Translations under genes and position numbers: made by a program
Source: a virus
Virus record (IMG/VR): IMGVR_UViG_3300032073_000354
Location: 1-20,072 of that record
Length of the DNA stretch: 20,072 nt
Direction: 5' to 3' (one strand)
Shown: piece after piece, positions 1,463-20,072 of the stretch
Numbering within the stretch: the first letter of the stretch is position 1
Layout: each line of letters opens with the position of its first letter
The notes under the pieces: model-generated
Told to the model about the DNA's origin: nothing
The model's database searches: none
Seen by the model: only the letters and a program-made list of their open reading frames with translations

Positions 1463-3712
1463 ATGAGTACTAATGTATTTATACCCGCAGGAATTAAAGA
1501 TAAATCAATAAGAGACACGTTTCTTGCAATAGTTAAAGAACTAGGAACAGTAGCTTATAAACCTACTATTTCTGCTTCGGACCCAACAGCTTCTACTCTT
1601 GGAACAGAAGGTCAGTTAATTTATGCTGAATCAACAAATAGCATATGGTTATTTAAAGAAAACGGTTGGGTTAAAATACTGGGCGCTACGGGAGCCACAG
1701 GAGCTACAGGAGCCACAGGAGCTGCAGGCGCTACAGGTGCAGCAGGCAGCAATGGAAGCGATGGCGCTGATGGCGATAGAAGTATAATTGTATATCTTTA
1801 TGATTCAAGTGTTAATGAACCAACAAATCCTGCTAGTAATGCAGGTTTTACTTCAGGTGGAGGAGCTGCTGCTACAGGTAGTTGGACTACCACTGTTCCT
1901 ACTATTGGTTCTGGAGAAGCTCTTTGGATTGCTCAGAATGTTCTTACTCAAAGCAATTCTACAGGAAATTATAATAGTGGCGGCTGGACAGTTTATAGAG
2001 CACAAGGATATGATGGTGCAACAGGAGCTACAGGACCAACAGGTTTACCTGCTCCTAGATTTGAAAGCAGAAGAGTTTATTTAGCATATACTCCTACATC
2101 AAGCACTCCTTTACCTGCTGCTCCTACTGGTACTTTAACTTGGTCAACAGGTAATTTAGTTTCTAATCCAAATACTTGGAGTGAAGTGCCTCCTACTAAA
2201 GTAATTAATTCTACAGTTAATGTATACTTTTCTGATTTTTTATTTATAGATACTTCAGGAACATCTACAACTTCTTCTGATACAGGAACTACTCCAAAAG
2301 AAGGAACAAAGTTTACTGGTGTAGTCTCATTTGTAGATGGGGACTTTGCGTTAGATGGTGCTACAGTAACTAACATTGATGGCGGTAACATAACAACTAA
2401 TACTATTAAAACTGAACAGATAGATATTGATGGCAGTCTTAGATTGTCTGGTAGTGATTCTGGTTTTATCGCAGGTAGAGTCAGTTCTTCTGCATATAAC
2501 ACAGATGGATTTTTTGTAGGCCGAGAAGTAAGACCTGCAATAATTTCTGCTGGAGCAATGTCAGTTGGTACAGAATATAGAATATTAACTGTTGGTACTT
2601 CACAATTTGTAAGTGTAGGAGCTTCAAGCAATGCTGCTGGAGTATCATTTAGAAACACTCAAGGCGCACTTGCAGGAACTGGTACAGTGCAAGAAGTTGG
2701 CTTTGAAGTAAGTCATACTTCAGTCGATAGTCAAATACATGGTATTATCCATACAGATGCTACGGGTCTTCAAATAATAAATCCAACTTTAATTTCGGGA
2801 GGATCATCATCAGGAGGAACGTCCACTATTTCTACTGTTACTTCAGTTAATACTGGAGATGCTGGTGCTAATATTACTTTAACCCTTTATGGTGGAGGTG
2901 GTGCTGGTGGTTTTGGATTAGATGATGGGTATTTAAATTCATCAGTTAGTCTTAATAACAGTGGTGGCACTACAGCGGCTCAAGTGTGGGCAGGAGTCCC
3001 TGACGCCAGTGGGTCTGTTCAGGTTGGTTCTTCGATTAGTGCGGCTGGTGGACTTGGTGGCAGAAATGCAATACTAGGAACACCTTGGTCTGGTGGAGCA
3101 GGACAGTCTTCAGATTTTGGACCAGGCGGTGCTGGAGCTGCTAGCGAAAGAACAAGTGGTAATGATGCTACAAATTTTTCTTCTGGAGGAGGAGGTGCTG
3201 GAGGTGATCAAAATCAAACTTTTGATAGTTCCGGTGGAGCTGGAATGGGGGGATTCATAGGTCAAAAAGTTACACAAACTTTTGATACCTCTGCCTACAT
3301 TGGGCTTAAACAAATTTATGTTAGAGTAACTGCAATAGGTGCAGGAGGAGTAGCCTCTTCGTCTGGTGGTAATTTTATTGGAGGCGATGGAGGCAATGGT
3401 GCTGTTCAGTTTTCTTCTATTTTAGGAGGAACTCAACAATTTACTTCTAGTGATTTAGCTCTTAATAAATGGAATACTATTGGATCTTACGCATGGTTAA
3501 CTACAGGACAAAATAGCACAACTAAGCTAGTCCCTAATACAGTCCTTGCTGGAACAGGTTTGTACCCAGCTGGATTTAGAACTGGTGGTCAAGGATCTCA
3601 TAGCAGCATACTCGCTAGTTATGACCCTACTGCGCTATCTGGAACTTGGAGAGTAATGTGTGGAACTAACTACAGTAGTTATCAAGCTGGATTATTTGTG
3701 AGGGTTACATAA
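1463..3712 (+). CDS. Tail fibre/adhesin with collagen-like and glycine-rich domains
   Basis: A 749-aa protein starting at ATG 1463, six bases after AGGAG (1452-1456). Order of parts: a short N-terminal region (1-73) that may attach to the tail; a collagen-like Gly-X-Y run (74-105); a domain starting near 106 (RSIIVYLYD); a second short Gly-X-Y run (185-194); a domain starting near 203 with similar VYL, P..P and TWSTG/SWTTT features; a region near 287-360 (FTGVVSFVDGDFALDG, later NTDGFFVGRE) resembling central segments of other phage fibres; a very glycine-rich section (about 477-647) with GGGGAGG patches; and a C-terminal tip (650-749). Collagen repeats form trimeric shafts, and poly-glycine sections occur in some phage tip adhesins. 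The role in receptor binding is inferred from this architecture and from the chaperone-like gene that follows with a one-base overlap. Confidence 0.8.
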   Translation: MSTNVFIPAGIKDKSIRDTFLAIVKELGTVAYKPTISASDPTASTLGTEGQLIYAESTNSIWLFKENGWVKILGATGATGATGATGAAGATGAAGSNGSDGADGDRSIIVYLYDSSVNEPTNPASNAGFTSGGGAAATGSWTTTVPTIGSGEALWIAQNVLTQSNSTGNYNSGGWTVYRAQGYDGATGATGPTGLPAPRFESRRVYLAYTPTSSTPLPAAPTGTLTWSTGNLVSNPNTWSEVPPTKVINSTVNVYFSDFLFIDTSGTSTTSSDTGTTPKEGTKFTGVVSFVDGDFALDGATVTNIDGGNITTNTIKTEQIDIDGSLRLSGSDSGFIAGRVSSSAYNTDGFFVGREVRPAIISAGAMSVGTEYRILTVGTSQFVSVGASSNAAGVSFRNTQGALAGTGTVQEVGFEVSHTSVDSQIHGIIHTDATGLQIINPTLISGGSSSGGTSTISTVTSVNTGDAGANITLTLYGGGGAGGFGLDDGYLNSSVSLNNSGGTTAAQVWAGVPDASGSVQVGSSISAAGGLGGRNAILGTPWSGGAGQSSDFGPGGAGAASERTSGNDATNFSSGGGGAGGDQNQTFDSSGGAGMGGFIGQKVTQTFDTSAYIGLKQIYVRVTAIGAGGVASSSGGNFIGGDGGNGAVQFSSILGGTQQFTSSDLALNKWNTIGSYAWLTTGQNSTTKLVPNTVLAGTGLYPAGFRTGGQGSHSSILASYDPTALSGTWRVMCGTNYSSYQAGLFVRVT
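1682..1777 (+). repeat. Collagen-like Gly-X-Y coding repeat, first block
   Basis: In-frame 9-base units of the form GGN-GCN-ACN encode four GAT triplets, then GAA, GAT, GAA, GSN, GSD, GAD and GD. The DNA units vary at third positions, so the repeat is probably kept by protein selection as well as by slippage. It lies at residues 74-105 of the tail fibre. Confidence 0.9.
2015..2044 (+). repeat. Collagen-like coding repeat, second short block
   Basis: Residues 185-194 of the tail fibre read GATGATGPTG, three Gly-X-Y triplets and one glycine. Together with the first block this brackets a globular domain of about 80 residues. Confidence 0.75.
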
Positions 3713-6383: not shown

Positions 6384-9300
6384 ATGAGTGTAGATAGTAA
6401 AGATCCATTTGACGGTTACTTTCAAAAACTTTTAAAAACAGAAGGCGGTTATGTAAACAATAAAAATGACAGAGGCGGTAAAACAAAATTTGGAATTACT
6501 TTAAATACATTAAAAAGTGTAAATCCCAAAGCTACTGAAAAAGATCTTAGAGGTTTATCAAAAGAACAAGCTAAAAAAATATATAAAGATGAATTTTATT
6601 TAAGATATAGAATTAATGAATTACCCGCTTACATTAGAGAACAAGTTTTTGATATTGCGGTAAATTCAGGGCCAGGAACGGCAATTAAACTTATTCAAGA
6701 ATTGGCAGGGGTTAAACAAGATGGAGTAATTGGACCCAACACAATTAAAGCAGCTAGTCTTGTTACTAATAATAAACTGGCAGATAGACGACAACAATTA
6801 TATAACGCAATAGTTGAGAAAGATCCTACTCAAGAAGAATTTATAGATGGTTGGACTAATCGTGCAAATTCCTTTAGAGATAAAGAAATGACGCAAGAAG
6901 GACCTACTTCTGAAAGTACTACCTCAACTGAAACTTCTTTATCAGATGCAGATTTAGCTTCTATGAATTTAGATTCTGATCTTTTAGGCCAATATTATGA
7001 TATGGGAAATTCAAGAACAGAATCACGAGTATCAAATTTAATAGAGCAACAAAAAGTAAGAGATAAACTTAAACAAAATCAATTAGACTTAGCTGTTGCT
7101 GGAGGCGAAGGAAAAACTTTTAGACAACAAGAAAGAGAAAGTCTTCTTCAAGATTTAAAAAGGTTACAAAAAGATCCTTTAACTGCTCCAGACTATAATA
7201 AAAATATTTTGTATAGTGGATTTGATTACGGACCAGCAGTACCTCCTGTTATTTCAACAGAAATACCTGGTGAACAACTAACTGTTCCTTTAGAAAATAC
7301 AGTACAACCACTTTCAACTCCACCTCCCTCTTTAGAACCATCTAAAGAAGATTTACTATACAAAAGAAATTCTCTTTTACAGGCTCCTCCTGAATTTAAT
7401 GATGGTACTAATAAAGTTAAATACTATGAAGATGGTATAAACTTTGCTGGACTTGATTATGATTCTCCTGTGTTAATTAAACAGTATGATAACTATCTTA
7501 ACTCTTTAAATAGAGGAGTTGCACCCACTGATGTACAAAAAGCTGCAAATGATAGAGTATTGCTTTTAGCTAAACAACAAGAAAATCAAGAAGAAATAGA
7601 CTTGCTTAACAAACGAATGGCTATACAAGCAGGGGATTCTGTTGGCGCTGAATTTAATGCTGCACAACTTGCACAATTAACTCATCAAGCTAACGTACTT
7701 AATTCTCCTGAGTTTGCAAACCTACCACCTCCTCCTGAAGAGGCTCTTGGTTTTGATTTTGTACCCAGAATAATAGACAATAACAAACCTAGAGAAGTAG
7801 TTCAAGCTGGGCTAGTTCCTCCTGCACTAGAAGAAGCAGTTAGTAAAGTAAGTAGTGTACCTTCTGCTTTACCAACTACAACTTCACAATTAATAATGAG
7901 TCAACCTCCCGTAATAGAAACTGAATTTGATGTTGCAAATCAAGAAAATTCTTCTTTTGATATTAATGATACCATGAGAGGAGTATTTGAGCCTATAGGA
8001 GAAATTATACAAAATAACCCTCTTAAAGATGCTATTCGCGCAGGTAGAAAAACTATGCAACAAGAGAAACAATTAGATAACTTCTTTAATCAACAGATTG
8101 TTAATCAATCTAAAGGTGTTCCTGGAGGTAATCTTCCAGTACCAAAAGAAATACCAGGATTTGATCCAAATAATTTATTTAATAAAAAACCACCACCCTC
8201 AGATCTCTTAGAAAATGAAATACCTCCTATAACAGAAACAGAGTCTGAAGTTACTTCGGCAGGAAGTCCTCCTGTTCTACCAGAAGGTAATTTTGATCCT
8301 GGGATTTCAGGAGATACAGGATTTGATAATGGCAGAGGGTTAGCTGTTACTTCAACAGGAATTCAATTTAATGGAAAACTAGTTGCAACACCAACTCTTC
8401 CAGAAGAAAGGCAACAAATAGCAAAGCAGCTAGGTCAAGATGAAAAGTCTATTGGTAAAAAAATAACTCCTTTCTTAAAAAAGTGGTTTGGAATAGAAGG
8501 AGAAGACTTGTCTAGAGCTTTAGGATTATACCTTATGTCTAGATTAACAGGTGCTTCTCATGAAGGTTCAATGCGTTGGGCAGGTAAAACTGCTCTTGAT
8601 ACTTCTGCTAAAAGGCAAGCTTTAGAAGCTAAAACTACCTTAGCTAATGCCGAAAAGGATAAAACTATTGAAGCACTAGTAGATGCAGGTTATACAGAAG
8701 CTTCTGCTAGATCTTATGTTCAAACAAAATTAGACGATGTTTTAGTAAGATCAGGTAGTAGATCAGGTGCTCTTAAAGAAACAGGTAATTCTGTACAGGT
8801 AGGAATTAGAGGACTACCAGGATTTACTTATGCTAATGGTTATGAAGTAGAAGATCCAAGTGGTAACAAGTATAATGTATTTAGAGTACCAAATAGCGTA
8901 TTTAGAGATCCTAAACCTGGTTTTAAAACAGTTAATGAAAGTCAGTTAGCTCAATTAATTGCTAATGCTACTGGAGGTAACGGTAGAATAGTTCCTTATG
9001 ACAAAAGTATGGATACTCAAGAAGGACGCACTAAAGCAGCTATTGATTTTACTGATGGTGTATATAAAACCTATGTAAAAGAACTTTTTACTGGAGCTGA
9101 TGACAAGGTTAGACGACAAATACCAACAGCATATTCGAGTGTTGCAAGATGGATGCAGGATACTATGGAATATAAATTCTATGAGCCTGGAATTCAACAA
9201 GAAGCTCAAGTAGTATTGCTTACTGCAATGAAAGATATGAGGAATGATTTAGATTCTGGTCGTATTAGTAACGTAGATGATGCTACACCTTACGTTAAAC

Positions 9301-9599
9301 GCTCGATACTTACTTCTGCCGCTTTACCTACAGGTCAATTATGGATAACTGCAGATGGTAAAAATACTGTTAGTGCTACTAAAACAAATGAAATTTGGAG
9401 TAAGTTAAAAAGTCATAATAGCTCTCCTGCAGCCATTAAAACTAACTTTAAAAAGCTTCATCAAACTTTTGTAAGACAAAAGAAAAATGGCGACTTACCG
9501 TCTATGAGTTTAAAAAAGTCTAAAGAAAATGAGTTTTCTGTTTGGGTAATGAAAACATTAAACGATAAAGAAGCATTAGAAGTAATTTTATCAGAATAA
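6384..9599 (+). CDS. Large internal virion protein with N-terminal GH108 peptidoglycan hydrolase
   Basis: A 1071-aa protein with ATG six bases after AGGAG (6373-6377). Residues 10-160 match glycoside hydrolase family 108 followed by its peptidoglycan-binding partner (PG_binding_3): LLKTEGGYVNN with probable catalytic Glu20, then DRGGKTKFGIT, and later QVFDIAVNSGPGTAIKLIQ and KQDGVIGPNTIKAA. Residues about 170-700 are low-complexity, rich in Gln, Pro and acidic residues, with PPP runs, and look mostly unfolded or extended. The C-terminal part (about 740-1071) is more globular and unrecognised. Such an enzyme on a huge virion protein would open the peptidoglycan layer locally during DNA entry, as the lytic transglycosylase of T7 gp16 does. 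The size and neighbours argue against a free endolysin. The hydrolase call is strong; the virion location is inferred. Confidence 0.75.
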   Translation: MSVDSKDPFDGYFQKLLKTEGGYVNNKNDRGGKTKFGITLNTLKSVNPKATEKDLRGLSKEQAKKIYKDEFYLRYRINELPAYIREQVFDIAVNSGPGTAIKLIQELAGVKQDGVIGPNTIKAASLVTNNKLADRRQQLYNAIVEKDPTQEEFIDGWTNRANSFRDKEMTQEGPTSESTTSTETSLSDADLASMNLDSDLLGQYYDMGNSRTESRVSNLIEQQKVRDKLKQNQLDLAVAGGEGKTFRQQERESLLQDLKRLQKDPLTAPDYNKNILYSGFDYGPAVPPVISTEIPGEQLTVPLENTVQPLSTPPPSLEPSKEDLLYKRNSLLQAPPEFNDGTNKVKYYEDGINFAGLDYDSPVLIKQYDNYLNSLNRGVAPTDVQKAANDRVLLLAKQQENQEEIDLLNKRMAIQAGDSVGAEFNAAQLAQLTHQANVLNSPEFANLPPPPEEALGFDFVPRIIDNNKPREVVQAGLVPPALEEAVSKVSSVPSALPTTTSQLIMSQPPVIETEFDVANQENSSFDINDTMRGVFEPIGEIIQNNPLKDAIRAGRKTMQQEKQLDNFFNQQIVNQSKGVPGGNLPVPKEIPGFDPNNLFNKKPPPSDLLENEIPPITETESEVTSAGSPPVLPEGNFDPGISGDTGFDNGRGLAVTSTGIQFNGKLVATPTLPEERQQIAKQLGQDEKSIGKKITPFLKKWFGIEGEDLSRALGLYLMSRLTGASHEGSMRWAGKTALDTSAKRQALEAKTTLANAEKDKTIEALVDAGYTEASARSYVQTKLDDVLVRSGSRSGALKETGNSVQVGIRGLPGFTYANGYEVEDPSGNKYNVFRVPNSVFRDPKPGFKTVNESQLAQLIANATGGNGRIVPYDKSMDTQEGRTKAAIDFTDGVYKTYVKELFTGADDKVRRQIPTAYSSVARWMQDTMEYKFYEPGIQQEAQVVLLTAMKDMRNDLDSGRISNVDDATPYVKRSILTSAALPTGQLWITADGKNTVSATKTNEIWSKLKSHNSSPAAIKTNFKKLHQTFVRQKKNGDLPSMSLKKSKENEFSVWVMKTLNDKEALEVILSE

Positions 9600-9617: not shown

Positions 9618-12600
9618 ATGTCAAACATTGATTCACTTAAAGCTGCTGTTGCAGAATTAAAAGCAGAAGGTGGTTTTGGAGAAGAAGGCATATACAAGGA
9701 TGGTATTCAAGTAATAGATGGGGATACTATTAAGGATGAAGAAGGAACTATTAGACTATCAGGTATTGATACTTCTGAAACACCTCACCTAAATCCTTAT
9801 ACTTTAGATTATGCTCCTGGCGGTGAAATCAAAGGCATACTTCAAACAGGAGAAACTGCTAACTTGATTGGTCAAGGCTTCAACCAGCCTTACCGATCAG
9901 GCGAGCAGGGTTATTTTGGTAGAGATCTTGGAGACCTTAGTAAAGAAGATGGTACTAGTTTAACTAAGACTTTACTTTCTCAAGGGTTAGCAGATCCTTC
10001 TTTGTATGCTACTCAAGATGAGTTGGCAATAAATAATATAGGGGCATTAGATAGAGCACAAAGAAAAGCTACTAGTCAAATGAACGAAGCAGACAAAAGA
10101 CGTTCTGTATTATTAGAAGCAGCTAGTTTAACTATAGGAGGAAATCCTTTTCTTCTTAAAGACACGGCTGCAACAGAAGCATACTATGCTGCTGCTCCAA
10201 ATATGTTTAGGGGCGTAGCAATGCAACGCTCTGATCGTACTATAATGAACGAAACTAAAGGTTGGCAAATTGACGATGCCTTTGCTATGGGTAAAACTAA
10301 TGGTAAAATTGGCGGCTATGCTTTTACACAACTAGTAGGAGACTTAGTAGGGTTAGATGGTTTATCTGATTTTGGAGAAGCCAACGCCGCTAGGCTCAAA
10401 AGAGAAATGCAAGACTTACCTCAACTTAGAGATATGGAAGCCTTTGATGAAAATGGAGAATGGACTTTAGATGGTATTAGTGAGTTTAGTAACTATGTAT
10501 TTAGTAATGCAGCTGCTAGTGCGCCCTTAATGGGAGTAACTATTGCTTCTCTCTATGCAGCACCCTTTACTTGGGGAACATCTTTAGCTATACCTGCAGC
10601 AATGTATTCAGGAATGACTTATGATGCACAAAACACAAAAGACGTAGGAAAAGCTTTAACTTCAGGAACTTTCCAAGCAGCCTTAGATATAATAGGAGTC
10701 AGGGGTGTAAACCCAATGAAGCTATTTACTTCTGCAGGACGCAAAAGTGCAATAACAAAAATAGCTGCTCAGAAAAAGATATCTGAAGAAGCAGCAGAGG
10801 CTTTATTATCGCAGGCAATTAAAGATCAGACAGGTAACTTTTTATCTACTACAGGTAGAGCACTATCTAAGTCAGCAAAAGTTGGTAAAAACATAGGTAA
10901 AGGTGCTTTGTATGAAGGCATTACTGAAACCACTCAGGAAGCAATTGCTCTCTGGGGAGAAGGTAATTTAGTCACACCTCAAGAAGTTAAGAATAGAATG
11001 CTTAATGCAATTGTTGCAGGTGGTACTCTTGGTGCAGGTTTTACTAGTGTTGCAGAACTTTCTTCCGGTATAAAATCTTCTAATATTACTAAAGGTAATC
11101 AGCTAGCAGACAAAACTGCTGCTCAATTAACTAACTCTCAAGATATGGAAGACTTTGGTAAAGTATTAGATGTTAATGAAGCTATAGATAAAATTAAAAC
11201 TACAAAAATTTCAGTAGAAGAAGTTAAGGATGAACCAGTAGTTAAAAAAGTTAAACCTTATAGAAACCCTAATGATGGCTTTGATGAATTTAGAATAAAA
11301 GCAGAAGAGCAAGTAATTTCTACTAACGGAGTAATTAGTCACCGTGTTGATGCTCGAGTTAAAGCACTAAAAGAAAACGTAGGTCCTGAAGCAGCAACAG
11401 CATACGCTATGGCTGCTCAAGCTAAATCGGATGAAATGATTGCAGATAGAGCGAATAAAAATAAAGCAGCTGCAAAAAAATTAAAAGTAAAACGTAGTAC
11501 AGTAGTAACCAATGAAAATGACGCAACAGAAGGAATGTCACTAAAAGAACAGGCAGCAGCTAGGTCTAAAGAAAAAGAAGATAAAGCTCTTTTAGATAAC
11601 GTAGGAGATGCAGTACCGTATTTATGGCAAGCTTCCTTAGAAAATAAATTAAAAGCTTATAAGACAGGTAAGTACGGATCAATGTTATGGAGTCTTTTAG
11701 TTGGAAAAAATGGTCGTGCTGGTCGTAATTTTGAAGAGGCACGTAGACAAAATAGTGCAGACATTGTTAGTAATAAGTATTTAGATCCTGTAGAGGGTCC
11801 GAGTAATCTTGGTTTTCAAAATACTAGAGAACTTTCAAACTCAGTAGAAGCTAGTAAAGAGGCTATTACAAGAATACTTAGACAAGCAAGAACTGTAGAA
11901 GATGTTAGAGTTATAGCAGCTAAAGAAAATATAGATTCTAGATTACTTCCTTTTATTACTGCAATATTTGAAAAGAACTTGGCAATAAGAGCAGACACAG
12001 GAATAAAAGAAGCTAACTTGTTAGAAAAAACTTTTAACAAAAGTTATATTTATAGAAATCAAAAGAAATTTATTGCTATGCTACAAACAGAATTAGGTGT
12101 TAGTGCTGAAGTTGCTATAGATATTACTCAGGCAATAATAAAAAATGAAGACTATACAAATCCAGATGATGCTTTAAGTGGTCTTTTAAACTTATCTTCT
12201 GCTCCAGATAAAGGCGCAGTGAAAAAATATGCTCAGTATAAAGATGTATTTAATGAATATCTTATGTCAAATATAATGGACAATGTACAGGCTAATGCAG
12301 TAAAATTTGGTAATGTCAAAGCTAATATAGATTATATTGGAGAAAATGGAAGTATAATTTCAAAAGGTTTAGATTTAATGAAGGCTAACAATGAAGTTGA
12401 TAGCGAAGAAAAAGCAAAATTAGCTTATGAATTAGATAAATTTTTACAACAAATTTCTGGAGAATATCATAGAGTAGACAACAGAATGTATAATACTGCA
12501 GTAAATAATGTTTCTCTATTATCTATGGTATCTATGTTACCTATGGCAGCAATTTCTTCTCTTACAGAATCAGCTTTAGTTATTTTTAGTAGTCCAAGAC

Positions 12601-13715
12601 CTTTATATGCTGCCTGGAAAATGAGTCAGTTTACTGCTAAAGAGTTTGTAGCTATTGCCAACGAAGGATTAACCGCGCTTTCTAATGGTAGAATTCCTAT
12701 GAAAGATTATTTTCACAGAGAAATGTTAAGAAAGTCAGGGTATCTATTAGAAACACAGGGTGCTGCGGCAAGACTAGGCGTTGACTCTAGTCCTTCTCAA
12801 GCTAGATTTGTACAAAGCTTTTTTAAAGTTAATGGACTTACATCCTTAACAAACATACAACGTGTTACTGCATTAGTTATGGCTGAAGACGCAGTTAATC
12901 ACTGGGTAGATCAAGCAGTGTTACAAAAAGGTGTTAATAATAGACTATATACAGAGGCATATGATAATTTAAGTTTCTTAGGAGTAAATCCTGAAATAAT
13001 GATAGAACACAAAGAAAGTTATCATGGTCTAAATGATTCTCTTAACTCTGTTATAGGTTCTTTATCTATGGCAGATAGAGAAAAATTATATTTAGAACAA
13101 ATGGAAGTTGCTAAAACAAGATTTGTAGATCAAAGAGTAATACAGCCCTTTAAAGGAAATAGACCTGAATTTTATTCAGATCCTAGATTTCGTTTATTTA
13201 CTATGTTTCAAGGTTTTATTAGTACTTTCACTGCTAATGTTTTACCTATGCTTTATGGACAAGCTTTTTCAAAAAATAGTCTTCCAGAAGCAAGAGTAAA
13301 AGCTATAACTACAATGGCAGCAATGATTGCCTTTACTTATTTTGCTCAAAATTTAAAAGATGCGTTAAAGGGTAAAGATGAAGATGACGACTTACCTCCG
13401 TTTAAAGAATTTTTAAGAACTCTTTATGGATCAGGACTAGTAGGCACAGTAGAAAGGCCACTTACAGCAATAATGCCTTTGTATGGAAATAATTCTGATA
13501 CAGGAAAATTAATAGAAGCTATGTTAGGTCCTACTGCAGGTGCTGTAACTGACTCAGTAATAGGAGAATCACCACAATTATCTTATGTAGATAATTTTGT
13601 AGGCATTTTTTCAGATGCTATGGGAGACGATCAATCAAGAATACCTCGTGATCTCTTAAAAGCAACCCCAGCAAACGTATTTAAAAATTGGTTGGCACCA
13701 ATGGAAAAGGAGTAA
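9618..13715 (+). CDS. Giant ejection protein with N-terminal staphylococcal-nuclease-like domain
   Basis: A 1365-aa protein. Residues about 26-130 read as an SNase/thermonuclease domain: VIDGDTI with Asp36, IRLSGIDTSET with Arg46, Asp51, Thr52 and Glu54, and YFGRDLGDL with Arg102. These align with D21, R35, D40, T41, E43 and R87 of staphylococcal nuclease, so all catalytic and metal-binding positions are kept. A following LLSQGLADP also matches the family. The rest resembles a T7 gp16-type channel protein: hydrophobic stretches near 298-330, 965-990, 1190-1216 and 1230-1247, separated by long helical, charged regions, with a YEGITETTQEA segment near 435. No signal peptide is present. Likely role: packed in the capsid and ejected through the envelope. 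Whether the nuclease acts on host DNA, on RNA or not at all cannot be seen. Confidence 0.68.
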   Translation: MSNIDSLKAAVAELKAEGGFGEEGIYKDGIQVIDGDTIKDEEGTIRLSGIDTSETPHLNPYTLDYAPGGEIKGILQTGETANLIGQGFNQPYRSGEQGYFGRDLGDLSKEDGTSLTKTLLSQGLADPSLYATQDELAINNIGALDRAQRKATSQMNEADKRRSVLLEAASLTIGGNPFLLKDTAATEAYYAAAPNMFRGVAMQRSDRTIMNETKGWQIDDAFAMGKTNGKIGGYAFTQLVGDLVGLDGLSDFGEANAARLKREMQDLPQLRDMEAFDENGEWTLDGISEFSNYVFSNAAASAPLMGVTIASLYAAPFTWGTSLAIPAAMYSGMTYDAQNTKDVGKALTSGTFQAALDIIGVRGVNPMKLFTSAGRKSAITKIAAQKKISEEAAEALLSQAIKDQTGNFLSTTGRALSKSAKVGKNIGKGALYEGITETTQEAIALWGEGNLVTPQEVKNRMLNAIVAGGTLGAGFTSVAELSSGIKSSNITKGNQLADKTAAQLTNSQDMEDFGKVLDVNEAIDKIKTTKISVEEVKDEPVVKKVKPYRNPNDGFDEFRIKAEEQVISTNGVISHRVDARVKALKENVGPEAATAYAMAAQAKSDEMIADRANKNKAAAKKLKVKRSTVVTNENDATEGMSLKEQAAARSKEKEDKALLDNVGDAVPYLWQASLENKLKAYKTGKYGSMLWSLLVGKNGRAGRNFEEARRQNSADIVSNKYLDPVEGPSNLGFQNTRELSNSVEASKEAITRILRQARTVEDVRVIAAKENIDSRLLPFITAIFEKNLAIRADTGIKEANLLEKTFNKSYIYRNQKKFIAMLQTELGVSAEVAIDITQAIIKNEDYTNPDDALSGLLNLSSAPDKGAVKKYAQYKDVFNEYLMSNIMDNVQANAVKFGNVKANIDYIGENGSIISKGLDLMKANNEVDSEEKAKLAYELDKFLQQISGEYHRVDNRMYNTAVNNVSLLSMVSMLPMAAISSLTESALVIFSSPRPLYAAWKMSQFTAKEFVAIANEGLTALSNGRIPMKDYFHREMLRKSGYLLETQGAAARLGVDSSPSQARFVQSFFKVNGLTSLTNIQRVTALVMAEDAVNHWVDQAVLQKGVNNRLYTEAYDNLSFLGVNPEIMIEHKESYHGLNDSLNSVIGSLSMADREKLYLEQMEVAKTRFVDQRVIQPFKGNRPEFYSDPRFRLFTMFQGFISTFTANVLPMLYGQAFSKNSLPEARVKAITTMAAMIAFTYFAQNLKDALKGKDEDDDLPPFKEFLRTLYGSGLVGTVERPLTAIMPLYGNNSDTGKLIEAMLGPTAGAVTDSVIGESPQLSYVDNFVGIFSDAMGDDQSRIPRDLLKATPANVFKNWLAPMEKE
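13708..13712 (+). promoter_or_regulatory. Shine-Dalgarno AGGAG that fixes the 13718 start
   Basis: AGGAG overlaps the last codons of the upstream gene and lies five bases before ATG 13718. An in-frame TTG at 13688 has no such site, so ATG 13718, two bases after the previous stop, is preferred. Confidence 0.8.
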
Positions 13716-13717
13716 CT

Positions 13718-16700
13718 ATGGCTAAATCACTTAATCCAGGAAAATTTTCACCTAGCGTGGAAGTTCCAGACGCAGGTACTCCTGCACCAGTAGAAGGATT
13801 ATCTCCTGAGTTATTACAACAAGTAATGGCAGCAGGAATTTCTCCTGAAATATTAATCCAACAATTACAAGCACAACAACAAGGGGCAACACAAGCGGTT
13901 GCTCCTGTTGTAAATCCTTTGGAAGACTTAGAAAGAGGAGGTGTTGCGCCACAACCAATTAGTCCTTTTTTAGATCCAGCTGGACAACAACCTCCTGCAA
14001 ATGCTCCGCAGCCTGTTGTTCCCGATCTTCAATCAACTCCAGAAGGAGTTAATATTTTAACAGATCAAGGAACAGTAGGAACAACTGCAGACCTTAGACA
14101 AGCACAGATAGATCAATTTAACACAGAAGAAGCTGAAAGAGCAAGAGGTGCAATTGGTTTTAACCAGTCCACTAGGCAACAATTTGATGAAGCTTACTCA
14201 GAAGCTTTAGCTCCTGGAAAAATAGGAGACTTACATAGGCTAGGTCGAGTAGTATCTGATGCCAGTATTGAAGGTAGATATAAAATAAAAGATTCATTAG
14301 GAATTTTACCCGAAAATGCTACTCCAGTAGAGTTAGTATCTAAAGGACTTAAAGCTTCTCCTGTAGAGGCAGTTAATGCTACTACCTTTGCTTTTTTAAA
14401 AATGTCAAATGCTTTATCAGCACGACAAAAAATTCTTGATGAAGGAGGAGAAGATCCTGCTGATACTGATGAAATACTTTCTCTTGCAGAAATAGATGCC
14501 TTACTTACTAGATCAGAGGGAGGCAGAGTTGCAATAGAAGCAGACACTTTAGATGGTATACTTGCAGGTTATACTAAAAGTACTCTTGATAGAGTTAGAA
14601 ATGCAGATAGTGGACCAACAAATCAACCAAAATTAGTAGGCAATGCACAAGCTAAAATGTTAATTAATTCTGGTTTATTAGAAGAAACTTTTTTTCAACC
14701 AGAAAATCCTAAAGGTGAAATAATTAACCCAGATAGTGTACCTATAAAAGGTTATCAAGTTACTGAGAGAGGAGCAATGGTTGCTTATGAGTTAAAAGAA
14801 CTTTCAGATTATAATAAAAGAGAGTATTCTGAGGAAGCAGGATACTCTCCTCAATCTGAGTCTAAAGCAATAAACCAACCTTTTCCTAGACGTAATGCAG
14901 TTAAAGTTCATGGTAAAACTCCTGGCACCTCAGTTGGTGCTTATAACTTGAGTAAACCTAAGGCTAAAAAGAAGGCTGCTGGAGAAAAGTCAAATCAAAA
15001 TACAGCGATTTATCAGTATGCAGAGGATTATAGACAAAGTCCAGCTAGAATGAATCCTAGAGTTATAACAGCTGCTGAAAAGTATGTTGAATATTTTAAA
15101 CAAGCTAGATCAATTAAAGAAGCAGGAGGTACTTTAACTCCGCAACAAAATAGATTGCTTGAAAACATTACTAAATTTATGAAGCTAGAAAGAGTTCCTT
15201 CAGATGCACCAGGAAGTCCTTCAAAATTAATGGCAGCAGAAAGAGCTATACAAGGTGCAAAAATGGTTGACGGGTTTATGCTACGTCATGTAGAACAACA
15301 TGGTAACTTGCTTAGATTAACTAATCAAACTGCTAATTTAAATGAACAAGAATATCCTAGAGTACATAAAGGTGCTATGGAAGGTCGTCCTCAAAATTAT
15401 GTTTTTACTGATCTTAAAATAAAATCACCTAAAGAACCAGTAATTTCTCAATCAGATTTTGCAGACTATAAAAGATGGGTAAATTCAAATGGAGATACAC
15501 CTCCCAGTATAAACATAAAGCGTACAGCTATGTTGATAGGATTAGGCTCTTGGATAGTTCCAGGATCAAGAATTAATACTACTGAATTTTTAGTAGAGAA
15601 TTTTACTATGGGTAAGCTAAGAGAATTTGGCGAGAAAGGAGATGTTCTTCAAAGATTTGTTAACGATCCTGCTGCATTAAAAGAAGAAGAGTTTATTTCA
15701 AAATTAAATGACTTTATAGAAACAGATATTTCTATAGACAAAGGAAAAATAAATGGATTTATTGCAAAAGCTTCTTTTGTTGCAGGAGATATTATTAAAG
15801 CTTTAGACAATGCTAGTCTTAGTGAACCTATTAGCTTAAATTTTAGCCCAGTTGCACCTTCAGGAGATATGTCTTCTGCTGGACTTACTCTTATGGCTTT
15901 TGATAAAGGAGACTTTGAAACAATTTCTCATGTAGGATTAATGTATACCCCTGATGGAACTTTAATGTTTGAAAAAGGTAACCCAAGAAAGATGCTTCTT
16001 GGTGAAATTACTTCTGGTTTAAAATTAAATCCAAAAACAATTCTTGGAATAAGTTCTTCTCAACAAGCAGAACTTGCAGAAGCCTTGACACCAAGATTTA
16101 ATAGTGAAGAAGGTGATGCTGGTTTTGCAGATGATTTTGGTAAAGGAGCATTAATGGTTTCTGGCTACGGTAAGTCTAGATTTTTTATGCAACCTCAAGC
16201 TAAATCTTTTTTAGAAAAGTATCCTGCTGTTGCAGAAGTATTTGATAGAGTAGCTGCAGAAAGCGATAACTATGATTCTGGAGTAGCATTAGCGAATGAA
16301 GCTATTGGTTATGGCTTACAAAGAATTAACAAATCATGGTATGCACAAATGTTAAAAAATCAAGCAACAGCAGCCATGCTTCTTGGATTTAACTTGTCAG
16401 GAAATCTATCAGATGGAAGTAAATTAAGAGTAGGAGTTAAAGAGCATACGCCCTTAAAAGATTCAGGTTATGAGTTTAAAAACCCAGAAGGAGAAGTAGT
16501 TACTACAGGAGATTTATTTAATCCTATTCCTTCTGACTCACCTAGAGCAAGATCTCCTTTAAAGTGGGATAAAGATACAGAATCTTATGCTAAGAAAAGA
16601 ATAGGTTCCTCTCAAATAAATACTGTTACTGTGTTACAAGGTATTCCTAGAGAAGTAGAAGTAAATGCAATTGCTCATAAAAGAGTTCAAGCTCGTCTTC

Positions 16701-17338
16701 AAGATCCAAATATTTATTTTGGAAATATTCACGATAATATTATGGGAGACCCAGAGTATATGGCTTTGTTTCAACATGAAGTAAAAGCTGCTTTAAAACA
16801 AGTTACAAAACATGACCTTCAAAAAACTATAATAGATAGTTTTGAAGAGAATGCACAAAAAGTTCTAAGGCGTATAAAAGCAATGGATTCTGAGATAGTA
16901 ATTGGTGCAAGCTCAAAAGATCCTGCTTTATCTGGTTGGATAGAATACTTAGATGAAGTATATGCAGAGTATAAAGAAAATCTATTAAAAGATTCTAACT
17001 ATGAATCCTTTAAATGGAGTAACGCTCGAACAGAAAAGCTATTAAGAAAAGCTTATAGAGGTGGCGAAGGAATTTGGAAACCATTAGGAAAACCAGGAGT
17101 AACTCAATCAATTGGTGGCACTGTTTTAGAAGAAAGACAACCAAGTGAAACAGTAGCTATGGTTGTTTCCAGAGATACTCTTTTAAAGTTTATAAGCTCT
17201 GAACTTATGTTTCCTTTGCAAGAAACTATTAGAAGCAAAAATAAAACTGATTTATATACTAGACCAAAATTATTTAATGAAACATTTGAGTTTTTAGAAA
17301 ATAATGAACAAGGTTGGATGAAAATTGGTAGACCATAA
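13718..17338 (+). CDS. Large virion protein with a divergent single-subunit RNA-polymerase-like C-terminal half
   Basis: A 1206-aa protein, last gene of the late operon. Residues 1-130 are Pro/Gln rich. The middle is helical and unrecognised. From about 600 onward the order of T7/N4-type polymerase motifs appears: PGSR with Arg618 and then ENFTMGKLREF (compare GRVY...NPQGND in T7); LNFSPVAPSG at 707-716, where motif A would be; KGALMVSGYG with Lys809 and Tyr817 (T7 motif B is K-x7-YG); and GNIHDN with His1005-Asp1006 (motif C HD). Spacings R to A 92, A to B 99 and B to C 197 compare with 112, 94 and 181 in T7. Against full activity, the motif-A aspartate appears as Ser710 and the motif-B arginine as Asp805. 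It may be a very divergent virion polymerase of N4 type, a degenerate copy, or a chance match. The virion role is inferred from position. Confidence 0.5.
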   Translation: MAKSLNPGKFSPSVEVPDAGTPAPVEGLSPELLQQVMAAGISPEILIQQLQAQQQGATQAVAPVVNPLEDLERGGVAPQPISPFLDPAGQQPPANAPQPVVPDLQSTPEGVNILTDQGTVGTTADLRQAQIDQFNTEEAERARGAIGFNQSTRQQFDEAYSEALAPGKIGDLHRLGRVVSDASIEGRYKIKDSLGILPENATPVELVSKGLKASPVEAVNATTFAFLKMSNALSARQKILDEGGEDPADTDEILSLAEIDALLTRSEGGRVAIEADTLDGILAGYTKSTLDRVRNADSGPTNQPKLVGNAQAKMLINSGLLEETFFQPENPKGEIINPDSVPIKGYQVTERGAMVAYELKELSDYNKREYSEEAGYSPQSESKAINQPFPRRNAVKVHGKTPGTSVGAYNLSKPKAKKKAAGEKSNQNTAIYQYAEDYRQSPARMNPRVITAAEKYVEYFKQARSIKEAGGTLTPQQNRLLENITKFMKLERVPSDAPGSPSKLMAAERAIQGAKMVDGFMLRHVEQHGNLLRLTNQTANLNEQEYPRVHKGAMEGRPQNYVFTDLKIKSPKEPVISQSDFADYKRWVNSNGDTPPSINIKRTAMLIGLGSWIVPGSRINTTEFLVENFTMGKLREFGEKGDVLQRFVNDPAALKEEEFISKLNDFIETDISIDKGKINGFIAKASFVAGDIIKALDNASLSEPISLNFSPVAPSGDMSSAGLTLMAFDKGDFETISHVGLMYTPDGTLMFEKGNPRKMLLGEITSGLKLNPKTILGISSSQQAELAEALTPRFNSEEGDAGFADDFGKGALMVSGYGKSRFFMQPQAKSFLEKYPAVAEVFDRVAAESDNYDSGVALANEAIGYGLQRINKSWYAQMLKNQATAAMLLGFNLSGNLSDGSKLRVGVKEHTPLKDSGYEFKNPEGEVVTTGDLFNPIPSDSPRARSPLKWDKDTESYAKKRIGSSQINTVTVLQGIPREVEVNAIAHKRVQARLQDPNIYFGNIHDNIMGDPEYMALFQHEVKAALKQVTKHDLQKTIIDSFEENAQKVLRRIKAMDSEIVIGASSKDPALSGWIEYLDEVYAEYKENLLKDSNYESFKWSNARTEKLLRKAYRGGEGIWKPLGKPGVTQSIGGTVLEERQPSETVAMVVSRDTLLKFISSELMFPLQETIRSKNKTDLYTRPKLFNETFEFLENNEQGWMKIGRP

Positions 17339-17914: not shown

Positions 17915-17920
17915 TCACCT
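17915..17920 (-). promoter_or_regulatory. Shine-Dalgarno AGGTGA overlapping the polymerase stop codon
   Basis: On the - strand TAG-GTGAAAC-ATG joins the polymerase stop to the 82-aa start, so AGGTGA overlaps the stop codon. The short spacer and overlap suggest that ribosomes finishing the polymerase restart on the small gene. Confidence 0.6.
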
Positions 17921-20072
17921 ATGAAAAGAAGTTACGAGAACTAAGAACAGAGATGATATCTAACTCACCTAGCTCTGGAACTTCTATCGTACAGTTATTG
18001 TTAGTAATATAACGTTTAACTGATTCTAGAGGGTTATTATCGTTGTACATTTCAACGAATTTTTCCTGTGTTAATTGTTTTAATTTGTTAACATCAGAGG
18101 CATGACAACTAAAGCTATCATGAACGGCACCAAAGTTAACACCGAATTCATCTATAACAAGTGCCATGTGTGTAGCATCTTGAGAATGGATGTAGTTAGG
18201 AGAGATACCTGCACTGGCTTCTCTTCTGTTAGTAGTTTCTAAATATATTTTAGCTACATGGTTTATACGGCCAGGTTGTTTAGATGCACCGCCTATTACT
18301 CCTCTTAAAGTAGACTTACAAGTATCTTGTCTTGTAGCGTTTACTTTGTAGATAACAGGAAAACCAGACTTAGTCATCCAACGAATGTCTTCGCCTGCAT
18401 GACCTTTAACTAGCACTAAATTACAATCAGAAATCTTAGAGTTTATTTTATCTAAAGCAAGAGTATTTTCTGCAGTGGGATTTGCACGTTGTTCTTTGTT
18501 TGCTTCACGAGCAAGTTTTTTATATTTGTTTATTGTAGTATTAGATACTTTGTTACCTGCTTTATCTTGATATTCAAAGGTACCTAACTCCCACTGAGCT
18601 AAGTCTTGGAGAAACTTCATAGTAGTTTGAGAGCCTGGACATACGTGTTCTATTGCATCAAGTATATGTATAGCAAGAGCATCACAGTCTATTTGAGTAA
18701 TGTTATACTGCTCATCTGCGCCAGCTTGAACACAATCAGAGTACATTGACTCGGCTATTGTTTGAGCACCCGCAGAATAAGCTCTAGTCATAGTAGCTCT
18801 TTTTGAAATGAGCTTTCTTATCTCTGCATAAGACATGGGTCTGTCTTTAAAGAAATCAGGAGCTAGTTCTACTAGCTTTTGAGCTACCTTTACATATAAG
18901 TCATGAGGCACTGCACTATCATTTAATGCAACTAAACTACCTGTCTTATTATCTCTAGAAATAGCTGCAGAATGTTGGTAGCCGTTACAAGTACCATCTA
19001 TAGCAACAGGTATACTTGAAGTAGGAGTGTTTCCTTCTTCTTCCATGTCTGCAATATCACACCATTCAATACAACAAGCTAAAAACACTACTGGTTTTTC
19101 ACACTCATGTAGTATTCCTTGTTCTCCTGTCTTTTCTATAAGCTCCCAGTTATTATTAAACCAGTTTACTCTGTCGTCAAGAGAAAATTTGTCTACACTA
19201 ATAGTGTCTATGCCTTCTTTATGTAGCATAGAGTAATAGTCTTCTTCAACCCAGTCAGGTATTTCATTAACATTATATTTTTGGTTATAAGAGTTAGCAG
19301 TATGTATAGCAAGAGAACTTTTTCCATCGTCATCAATAGGTTTGCTTTCACTAAAGGACATTAGCCCTCTTGCAATATCATTGCCTTGATAGTTCATGTA
19401 AGGTTCTTTATAATATACTCTACCTCTATAGTCTAAGTCTACTAACGAGTAAAAGTGATCCCACTCTGCTAGTTGTTTTGCCTTGCCTAAAGTAGTTTTA
19501 ATTTCAGCTCTTTTAGCTCTTACTTGTAAAGGTCTAAGAGTCTTTTCCCATTCTTTGGCTATGTTATTATAAGAATTTTTATTATGAGAAGAAGGATTCT
19601 TTTGGTACTTTTCATAGGCAGTTTTAAGTAAGCTTTTAGGTATTGCATTAACATACATTGGTATATCTTTAGGCATTATGTTTTGTAAGTTGTTTATTAA
19701 CACAGCTAAAACTTTTGAATTTATTTTCCAAGAAGTTTGTTGCAATTTATTAGCTGCTCGAACAAAAGGAGAATCAATAAAAATATTATTGAAAGCATCT
19801 TTTTGAGCTTGAGGAGCAGAAATACCCCACCGTTTTATTAGAGGGTAATTTTTAGGTTGCATGATATGATGTATGTCTTCAGGCATTTCATCAACAGTAT
19901 AAACTAATAGGCCTTTACTTTCTATTAGTTTAAACTCACCAATTTCTTCCCAACGATCAGTTGGTTCAATCATGTAAGGAGCTTGAGCATTATAAGCACC
20001 AAACCCCTCTGCTCTTTTAACTATAATAAAACCAGATTGGACATAAGCTTCTAATACTAAGTCACCTGTTCT
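17919..20072 (-). CDS. T7-like single-subunit DNA-directed RNA polymerase (N-terminus beyond right edge)
   Basis: The frame continues without a stop from the Met at 19973 to the right edge (visible start RTGDLVLEAYVQSGFIIV), so the gene is cut by the window; 717 codons are visible. Numbering from that internal Met: DYRGRVYY with Arg185 and then NYQGND, matching the T7 DWRGR motif; motif A IDGTCNGYQH with metal-binding Asp326; motif B KRATMTRAYS with Lys391 and Tyr399; SPNYIHSQD; motif C HDSF with His618 and Asp619; and a C-terminus of SSRNFFS, like the FAFA foot of T7. All catalytic metal and nucleotide residues are present, so it should be active. It transcribes phage genes from its own promoters in the host cytoplasm. 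The DGTCNG form is closer to mitochondrial-type sequences than T7's DGSCSG. Two small genes follow in the same operon. Confidence 0.95.
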   Translation of the reverse strand, partial: RTGDLVLEAYVQSGFIIVKRAEGFGAYNAQAPYMIEPTDRWEEIGEFKLIESKGLLVYTVDEMPEDIHHIMQPKNYPLIKRWGISAPQAQKDAFNNIFIDSPFVRAANKLQQTSWKINSKVLAVLINNLQNIMPKDIPMYVNAIPKSLLKTAYEKYQKNPSSHNKNSYNNIAKEWEKTLRPLQVRAKRAEIKTTLGKAKQLAEWDHFYSLVDLDYRGRVYYKEPYMNYQGNDIARGLMSFSESKPIDDDGKSSLAIHTANSYNQKYNVNEIPDWVEEDYYSMLHKEGIDTISVDKFSLDDRVNWFNNNWELIEKTGEQGILHECEKPVVFLACCIEWCDIADMEEEGNTPTSSIPVAIDGTCNGYQHSAAISRDNKTGSLVALNDSAVPHDLYVKVAQKLVELAPDFFKDRPMSYAEIRKLISKRATMTRAYSAGAQTIAESMYSDCVQAGADEQYNITQIDCDALAIHILDAIEHVCPGSQTTMKFLQDLAQWELGTFEYQDKAGNKVSNTTINKYKKLAREANKEQRANPTAENTLALDKINSKISDCNLVLVKGHAGEDIRWMTKSGFPVIYKVNATRQDTCKSTLRGVIGGASKQPGRINHVAKIYLETTNRREASAGISPNYIHSQDATHMALVIDEFGVNFGAVHDSFSCHASDVNKLKQLTQEKFVEMYNDNNPLESVKRYITNNNCTIEVPELGELDIISVLSSRNFFS

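Follow-up and report, generated by a model that had tools for sequence, protein, structure and literature searches.

The window analysed here is a complete virus record of 20,072 bases (IMG/VR record IMGVR_UViG_3300032073_000354). Its plus strand holds the last part of a late operon, in which tail and virion proteins are followed by proteins of 1071, 1365 and 1206 amino acids (aa), in that order, and the 1206-aa protein is the subject of this report. The ATG of its gene lies two bases past the stop codon of the preceding gene, and a T7-like RNA polymerase (RNAP) gene on the other strand, with a reading frame still open at the contig end, converges on it. An initial annotation took the 1206-aa protein for a shorter N4-like virion RNAP (vRNAP) or an inactivated relative of one, based upon motifs at 15500-16790 (residues about 595-1024), in a phage that also has a T7-like enzyme. 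The latter enzyme is confirmed by its Pfam match (Table 1). We estimate a probability of roughly 0.74 that the 1206-aa protein is a strongly diverged, catalytically competent single-subunit RNAP that is made late, is packaged, and goes into the host along with the DNA to transcribe the first early genes.

A divergent family at a fixed position

Single-sequence searches of Pfam (to E 1), PHROGs (only noise at about 0.1), NCBIfam, PDB sequences and 50,697 phage records gave no match to the 1206-aa protein, and PF00940 and phrog_414 match the phage's other RNAP but not this one. A scan of genome contigs with the 1206-aa protein returned no relative, and a direct scan returned one close relative (L002, 53-55% identity). 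Further homologues were reached via the neighbouring gene, by fetching contigs with the T7-like RNAP (38 loci). Every fetched contig that extended more than 1 kb past this RNAP had a long open reading frame (ORF) converging on it at a distance of 587-693 bp. The positional relatives thus gathered represent 24 distinct contigs, among them the window and the cultured phage CRP-7. An alignment-based scan with A1 (low-complexity patterns) added one fragment, and with other subgroup members as queries at most a few new contigs were gained per scan.

Phages of the CRP-7 type are podoviruses of marine RCA roseobacters; those who described them classed them as non-N4-like and saw no synteny with other known phages (PMC6918029). 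On sequence grounds the window phage is related to this type, because its T7-like RNAP is 89% identical to CRP-7 gp30 and the 1365-aa protein resembles CRP-7 gp34 (24.5% identity, the aligned pieces making up 42% of the protein). An iterative search with hidden Markov models (HMMs) sorted the converging ORFs into group 1, with subgroups s1 (including the window), s2 and s3, and group 2, which holds CRP-7 gp33 and its relatives. Identity between the subgroups of group 1 is 15-20%. The two groups share about 14% identity, and hhalign shows them to be related (E 2e-7, probability 93.7) in an alignment that starts at motif B and extends to the C-terminal region. Gp33 is annotated as a hypothetical protein of 1235 aa and has the position, the size and the motifs (D, K/R, Y-G, HD) of the 1206-aa protein; by these alignments it is a divergent member of the candidate polymerase family. 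The T7-like RNAP is 82-89% identical across contigs, whereas the polymerase-like gene facing it is only 14-20% identical, yet its position is always occupied. The convergent intergenic region next to the RNAP gene (window 17919-20072 and its counterparts in loci L009-L047) looks like a boundary of module exchange, because the RNAPs on one side are 82-89% identical while the late-operon proteins facing them are 14-20% identical.

Catalytic residues, fold and family

Conservation was assessed in a group-1 alignment of 12 positional homologues from the three subgroups, and in both groups together (21 sequences). Only 26 of the 1206 residues are invariant in group 1, and among them are R618, D717, G722, K809, Y817, G818 and D1006, which correspond to R425, D537, G542, K631, Y639, G640 and D812 of T7 RNAP. 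Adding the CRP-7 group, at 14% identity, leaves D717, Y817, G818 and D1006 unchanged throughout, counting the sequences that cover each site. Five of these residues (R618, K809, Y817, G818 and D1006) had been named in advance, and a simple hypergeometric count that ignores composition puts the chance of all five falling among the invariant positions at about 3e-9.

The strings on which the initial annotation relied were read correctly in the protein: PGSR with Arg618, ENFTMGKLREF at 627-637, LNFSPVAPSG at 707-716, K809-x7-Y817-G818, and GNIHDN with D1006. At motif A, it had counted Ser710 at the aspartate site as a weak point, with 717 as an alternative site for an aspartate. S710 is rejected as the motif-A residue, being kept only in the window's own subgroup s1 while D717 is invariant in 21 of 21 sequences; the former choice had the register wrong by seven residues, and with D717 as the motif-A aspartate nothing at this motif points to inactivation. 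The spacings reported from R to A, A to K, K to Y and Y to D (92/99/8/189) were right for S710, and with D717 they become 99/92/8/189, compared to 112/94/8/173 in T7 and 135/111/8/273 in N4. The conservation expected of K809, Y817 and D1006 holds across divergent homologues, as it does for G818, save for an arginine in place of K809 in the CRP-7 group; it fails at H1005, which is F in one subgroup, matching N4 (IFDG).

The other weak point, Asp805, is genuine. The site of N4 R666 and T7 R627 holds D in s1 and s2 and K in s3 and group 2; in group 2 an R also takes the place of K809, as though arginine and lysine had been swapped. The motif-B arginine of T7 and N4 contacts the phosphates of the nucleoside triphosphate, and D805 suggests an altered way of holding the triphosphate. 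The alignments come close to showing that the predicted catalytic set of single-subunit RNAPs is kept, the motif-B arginine excepted. The candidate enzyme is probably active, because both metal ligands and the K, Y and G residues have been kept under extreme divergence.

Table 1. Features of the window, with coordinates on the 20,072-base record; groups and subgroups are those defined in the text
Feature	Position	Strand	Basis
Candidate virion RNA polymerase, 1206 aa	13718..17338	+	ORF; positional relatives; fold match to single-subunit RNAPs
R618 (T7 R425 / N4 R424)	15569..15571	+	invariant in group 1; K or shifted in CRP-7 group
Motif A, D717-MSSA-G722 (T7 D537...G542, N4 D559)	15866..15883	+	D717 in 21/21 sequences; hhalign pairs D717 with N4 D559
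Motif B, D805...K809-x7-Y817-G818 (N4 R666/K670/Y678)	16130..16171	+	Y817, G818 invariant; K809 = R in CRP-7 group
Motif C, H1005-D1006 (T7 D812, N4 D951)	16730..16735	+	D1006 invariant; hhalign register with N4 FDG, T7 HDS
Large putative internal virion (ejection) protein, 1365 aa, staphylococcal-nuclease-like N-terminal domain	9618..13715	+	
Large putative virion protein, 1071 aa, muramidase N-terminal domain (GH108 + PG_binding_3)	6384..9599	+	Pfam E 1.4e-24, 5.4e-10
T7-like (early) RNA polymerase, truncated at the right window end	17919..20072	-	PF00940 E 1.3e-57; phrog_414

A structure of residues 130-1206 was predicted for group 1 from 13 sequences using AlphaFold2 without templates (predicted local distance difference test score, pLDDT, 59.7; predicted template modelling score, pTM, 0.46). 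Confidence in this model is moderate at best, and its fold matches call for caution. In a Foldseek search of PDB with this model, all 18 chains with E 3.7e-9 to 0.019 were yeast or human mitochondrial or T7 RNAPs, aligned over about 1000 columns, and the next match was unrelated (E 0.59). The template modelling (TM) scores of these matches were low (0.24-0.29 by query), as the uncertain placement of domains in the model would lead one to expect. Among the BFVD matches to E 0.005, all those that bore a name were RNA polymerases, and several were nameless; a roseophage vRNAP matched at E 7e-7, and named tape-measure and polyvalent proteins first appeared at E 0.017. The model thus bears out the structure foreseen in the initial annotation in that, at significant E-values in PDB and BFVD, it matches single-subunit RNAPs and nothing else. 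The model of the CRP-7 group was poor (pLDDT 48.5), and RNAPs filled the first 14 of 14 ranks at E 0.14-0.58, which is not significant and is not counted as proof. The polymerase fold of the 1206-aa protein is close to being shown. Among viral proteins, the candidate model agreed best in fold with an unnamed 1463-aa protein (BFVD A0A7S5FRK7, E 7e-9), which may be another unannotated large phage RNAP.

In order to place the protein among the polymerases, profiles were built of 16 schitovirus-type vRNAP catalytic domains, of T7-like RNAPs and of controls. Group 1 aligned weakly with the N4 vRNAPs in hhalign (E 0.0012-0.02, and 0.0015 with the 16-domain profile; probability below 20%) and weakly with the T7 RNAPs (E 0.02), while the same query gave E 0.34-0.62 with the DNA polymerase of the phage group, 0.42 and 0.75 with reversed profiles, and 0.24-0.56 with other virion proteins. 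With thinned N4 profiles, a single hhalign alignment pairs D717 with D559, D805 with R666, K809 with K670 and Y817 with Y678, and D1006 is paired both with N4 D951, so that motif C falls on the FDG of N4, and with the HDS of T7. An N4-profile HMM search of 321 ORFs returned two s3 members as the first and third non-self matches (E 0.012 and 0.055); it did not pick up the 1206-aa protein at useful E-values. N4-type polymerases rank above T7-type ones in HMM searches with the group-1 profile. Two results count against a specific kinship with N4: the joint profile of both groups slightly favours T7 (E 0.0026) over N4 (0.011), and the best 50 PDB fold matches listed include no chain of the N4 mini-vRNAP. 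The 1206-aa protein is very probably a member of the single-subunit RNAP superfamily, and a kinship with the N4 vRNAP beyond superfamily level is weakly supported. Of the initial annotation, the polymerase assignment therefore stands, inactivation at motif A does not, and the N4 affinity is carried over in this weaker form.

Family A DNA polymerases also carry R-x3-K-x7-Y-G and HD motifs, and a DNA polymerase of this family, or another superfamily polymerase that is not an RNAP, could account for the conserved residues. Its family A form is rejected by the profile and fold scores: Foldseek gave E 2.8 for Klenow, whereas RNAPs reached 3.7e-9, and the phage's own DNA polymerase family scored only at the hhalign values given above. 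The phage group moreover has a family A DNA polymerase of its own, and we regard the explanation as a whole as very improbable. Even less credit is due to a chance resemblance of motifs in an unrelated structural protein, for which it speaks that no curated library matches the 1206-aa protein, but which would have to account for the invariance of residues named beforehand, the outcome of the fold search and profile alignments that are in register.

Proposed packaging and role at the start of infection

According to PMC12633501 and PMC4496689, the N4 vRNAP is the product of a conserved ejection operon of three genes; a few copies are packaged, and upon ejection it transcribes early genes that include the T7-like RNAPII. 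This protein (gp50, Schitoviridae; mini-vRNAP, residues 998-2103) has the same catalytic residues as the candidate, in the same order. Its gene ends the gp52-gp51-gp50 cassette (PMC12633501), and the candidate gene likewise closes the late operon, behind those of two large putative virion proteins; both phages also encode a second, T7-like RNAP. In N4, however, the polymerase is flanked by N- and C-terminal domains in a protein of about 3500 aa; the candidate is one third the size and has no room for these domains in full. The two further differ in R666 of N4 versus D805 of the candidate, their overall sequence similarity is barely detectable (E about 1e-3), no relation was detected between the two preceding virion-protein families and N4 gp51/gp52, and the window phage, unlike N4, is not a schitovirus. 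T7 and mitochondrial RNAPs (PF00940) share with the candidate the fold match at E 3.7e-9 to 2e-2, the catalytic set and nearly the same spacing from motif A to motif B (94 in T7, 92 in the candidate). They are set apart from it by the replacement of T7 R627, by its lack of a Pfam match and by its location in a structural operon, in a phage that has a separate, ordinary PF00940 enzyme. The same strategy, in which a virion RNAP transcribes the first genes, is described in PMC10770324 and PMC7598289 for the tail-tape-fused vRNAP of Thermus phage P23-45 and the vRNAPs of the jumbo phages phiKZ and AR9; those enzymes are relatives of multisubunit cellular RNAPs, with a fold different from that of the candidate.

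We infer packaging and ejection of the candidate from the gene order and the parallel with N4, and an early-gene role is inferred as well. The 1206-aa enzyme would be made late and enter the particle together with the products of the two genes just before its own, the large putative ejection proteins, of which one would contribute a muramidase domain for the wall and the other a nuclease-like domain. Having entered with the DNA, it would provide transcripts of the first early genes, among them those for replication and for the T7-like RNAP. The latter would then take over, giving an N4-like cascade of a virion RNAP followed by a second phage RNAP outside the N4 family.

Several points weigh against this proposal. 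The protein has no direct sequence match to any known polymerase in the libraries searched, the confidence of the AlphaFold2 model is low to moderate, and D805 occupies the site of the motif-B arginine of T7 and N4. No promoter was found, as hairpin and repeat scans of CRP-7 yielded no recurrent early-region element, and inspection of its frequent 10-mers yielded no promoter-like family. In the same genome (L080), a local tandem array of an 11-bp AACCTTG-containing unit lies in an early intergenic region at 1443-1486, with single copies near 1500 and 2427.

The protein could instead have inherited the vRNAP fold, with catalysis lost or changed in the window subgroup, and now serve ejection in the manner of T7 gp16. 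D805 is conserved in s1 and a second subgroup also has D at the site, and within the cassette the gene occupies the place of the ejection proteins T7 gp16 and N4 gp50. We consider this unlikely, as R618, K809, Y817, G818 and the two aspartates that bind metal are invariant while 98% of positions vary, a pattern not to be expected from neutral loss, and the subgroups with K at 805 retain a basic residue. Slightly less likely still is an active single-subunit RNAP that stays out of the virion and serves as a late or middle polymerase, its gene closing the late operon. Such an enzyme would agree with the PDB fold matches, which are T7 and mitochondrial RNAPs and not the N4 mini-vRNAP, and packaging itself is argued from context. 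On the other hand, the gene is the last of a structural operon, right behind two large putative virion proteins, the T7-like RNAP is already available for transcription after entry, and a polymerase made late makes most sense if packaged.

In reviews and recent structural studies the single-subunit vRNAP counts as unique to N4-like phages (PMC12633501; PMC7650795). An HMM survey of IMG/VR recovered contigs with N4-vRNAP as the sole N4 hallmark (PMC10654107), so loose vRNAP homologues outside the N4 family have already been seen, and a 2023 paper, arguing from size, helix content and the absence of cysteine, guessed that phage StenR_269 and Zobellviridae have vRNAPs (PMC10747016). In the literature covered, which excludes most subscription journals, we found no publication that calls the 1206-aa protein or CRP-7 gp33 a polymerase, and the CRP-7 paper names only the T7-like RNAP (PMC6918029). 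It is to our minds an even bet that these proteins form a separate lineage of virion single-subunit RNAPs outside Schitoviridae, of about 1200 aa and with D or K for the motif-B arginine, which widespread marine CRP-7-type phages would use to start infection without host RNAP. If the vRNAP assignment is true, there is a second, much shorter vRNAP lineage, and the strategy is more widespread, and either older or repeatedly invented. It would explain how transcription starts in CRP-7-type phages before the T7-like RNAP is made, and would provide a small natural enzyme with which to test which parts of the giant N4 protein serve packaging and ejection. A function would also be assigned to a protein family missed by Pfam, PHROGs and NCBIfam. 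CRP-7 and its host are in culture, which makes the claim directly testable.

Neighbouring genes of the late operon

The 1071-aa muramidase-headed protein is probably a wall-penetrating ejection protein. The 1365-aa protein matches a virion structural protein family (phrog_6958, E 4.6e-17) and an endonuclease family (phrog_452, E 0.0017; Pfam E 0.033), and its family adjoins the polymerase gene in relatives too, as a conserved neighbour. Its nuclease-like start contains VIDGDTI, IRLSGIDTSET and GYFGRDLGDL, and the acidic and arginine residues are mostly retained in relatives, including CRP-7 gp34. An ejected nuclease, if that is what the 1365-aa protein and gp34 are, would be unusual. Further upstream, at 1463-3712, lies a gene for a tail-type protein that carries a collagen-like GATGATGATGAAGATGAAGS stretch.

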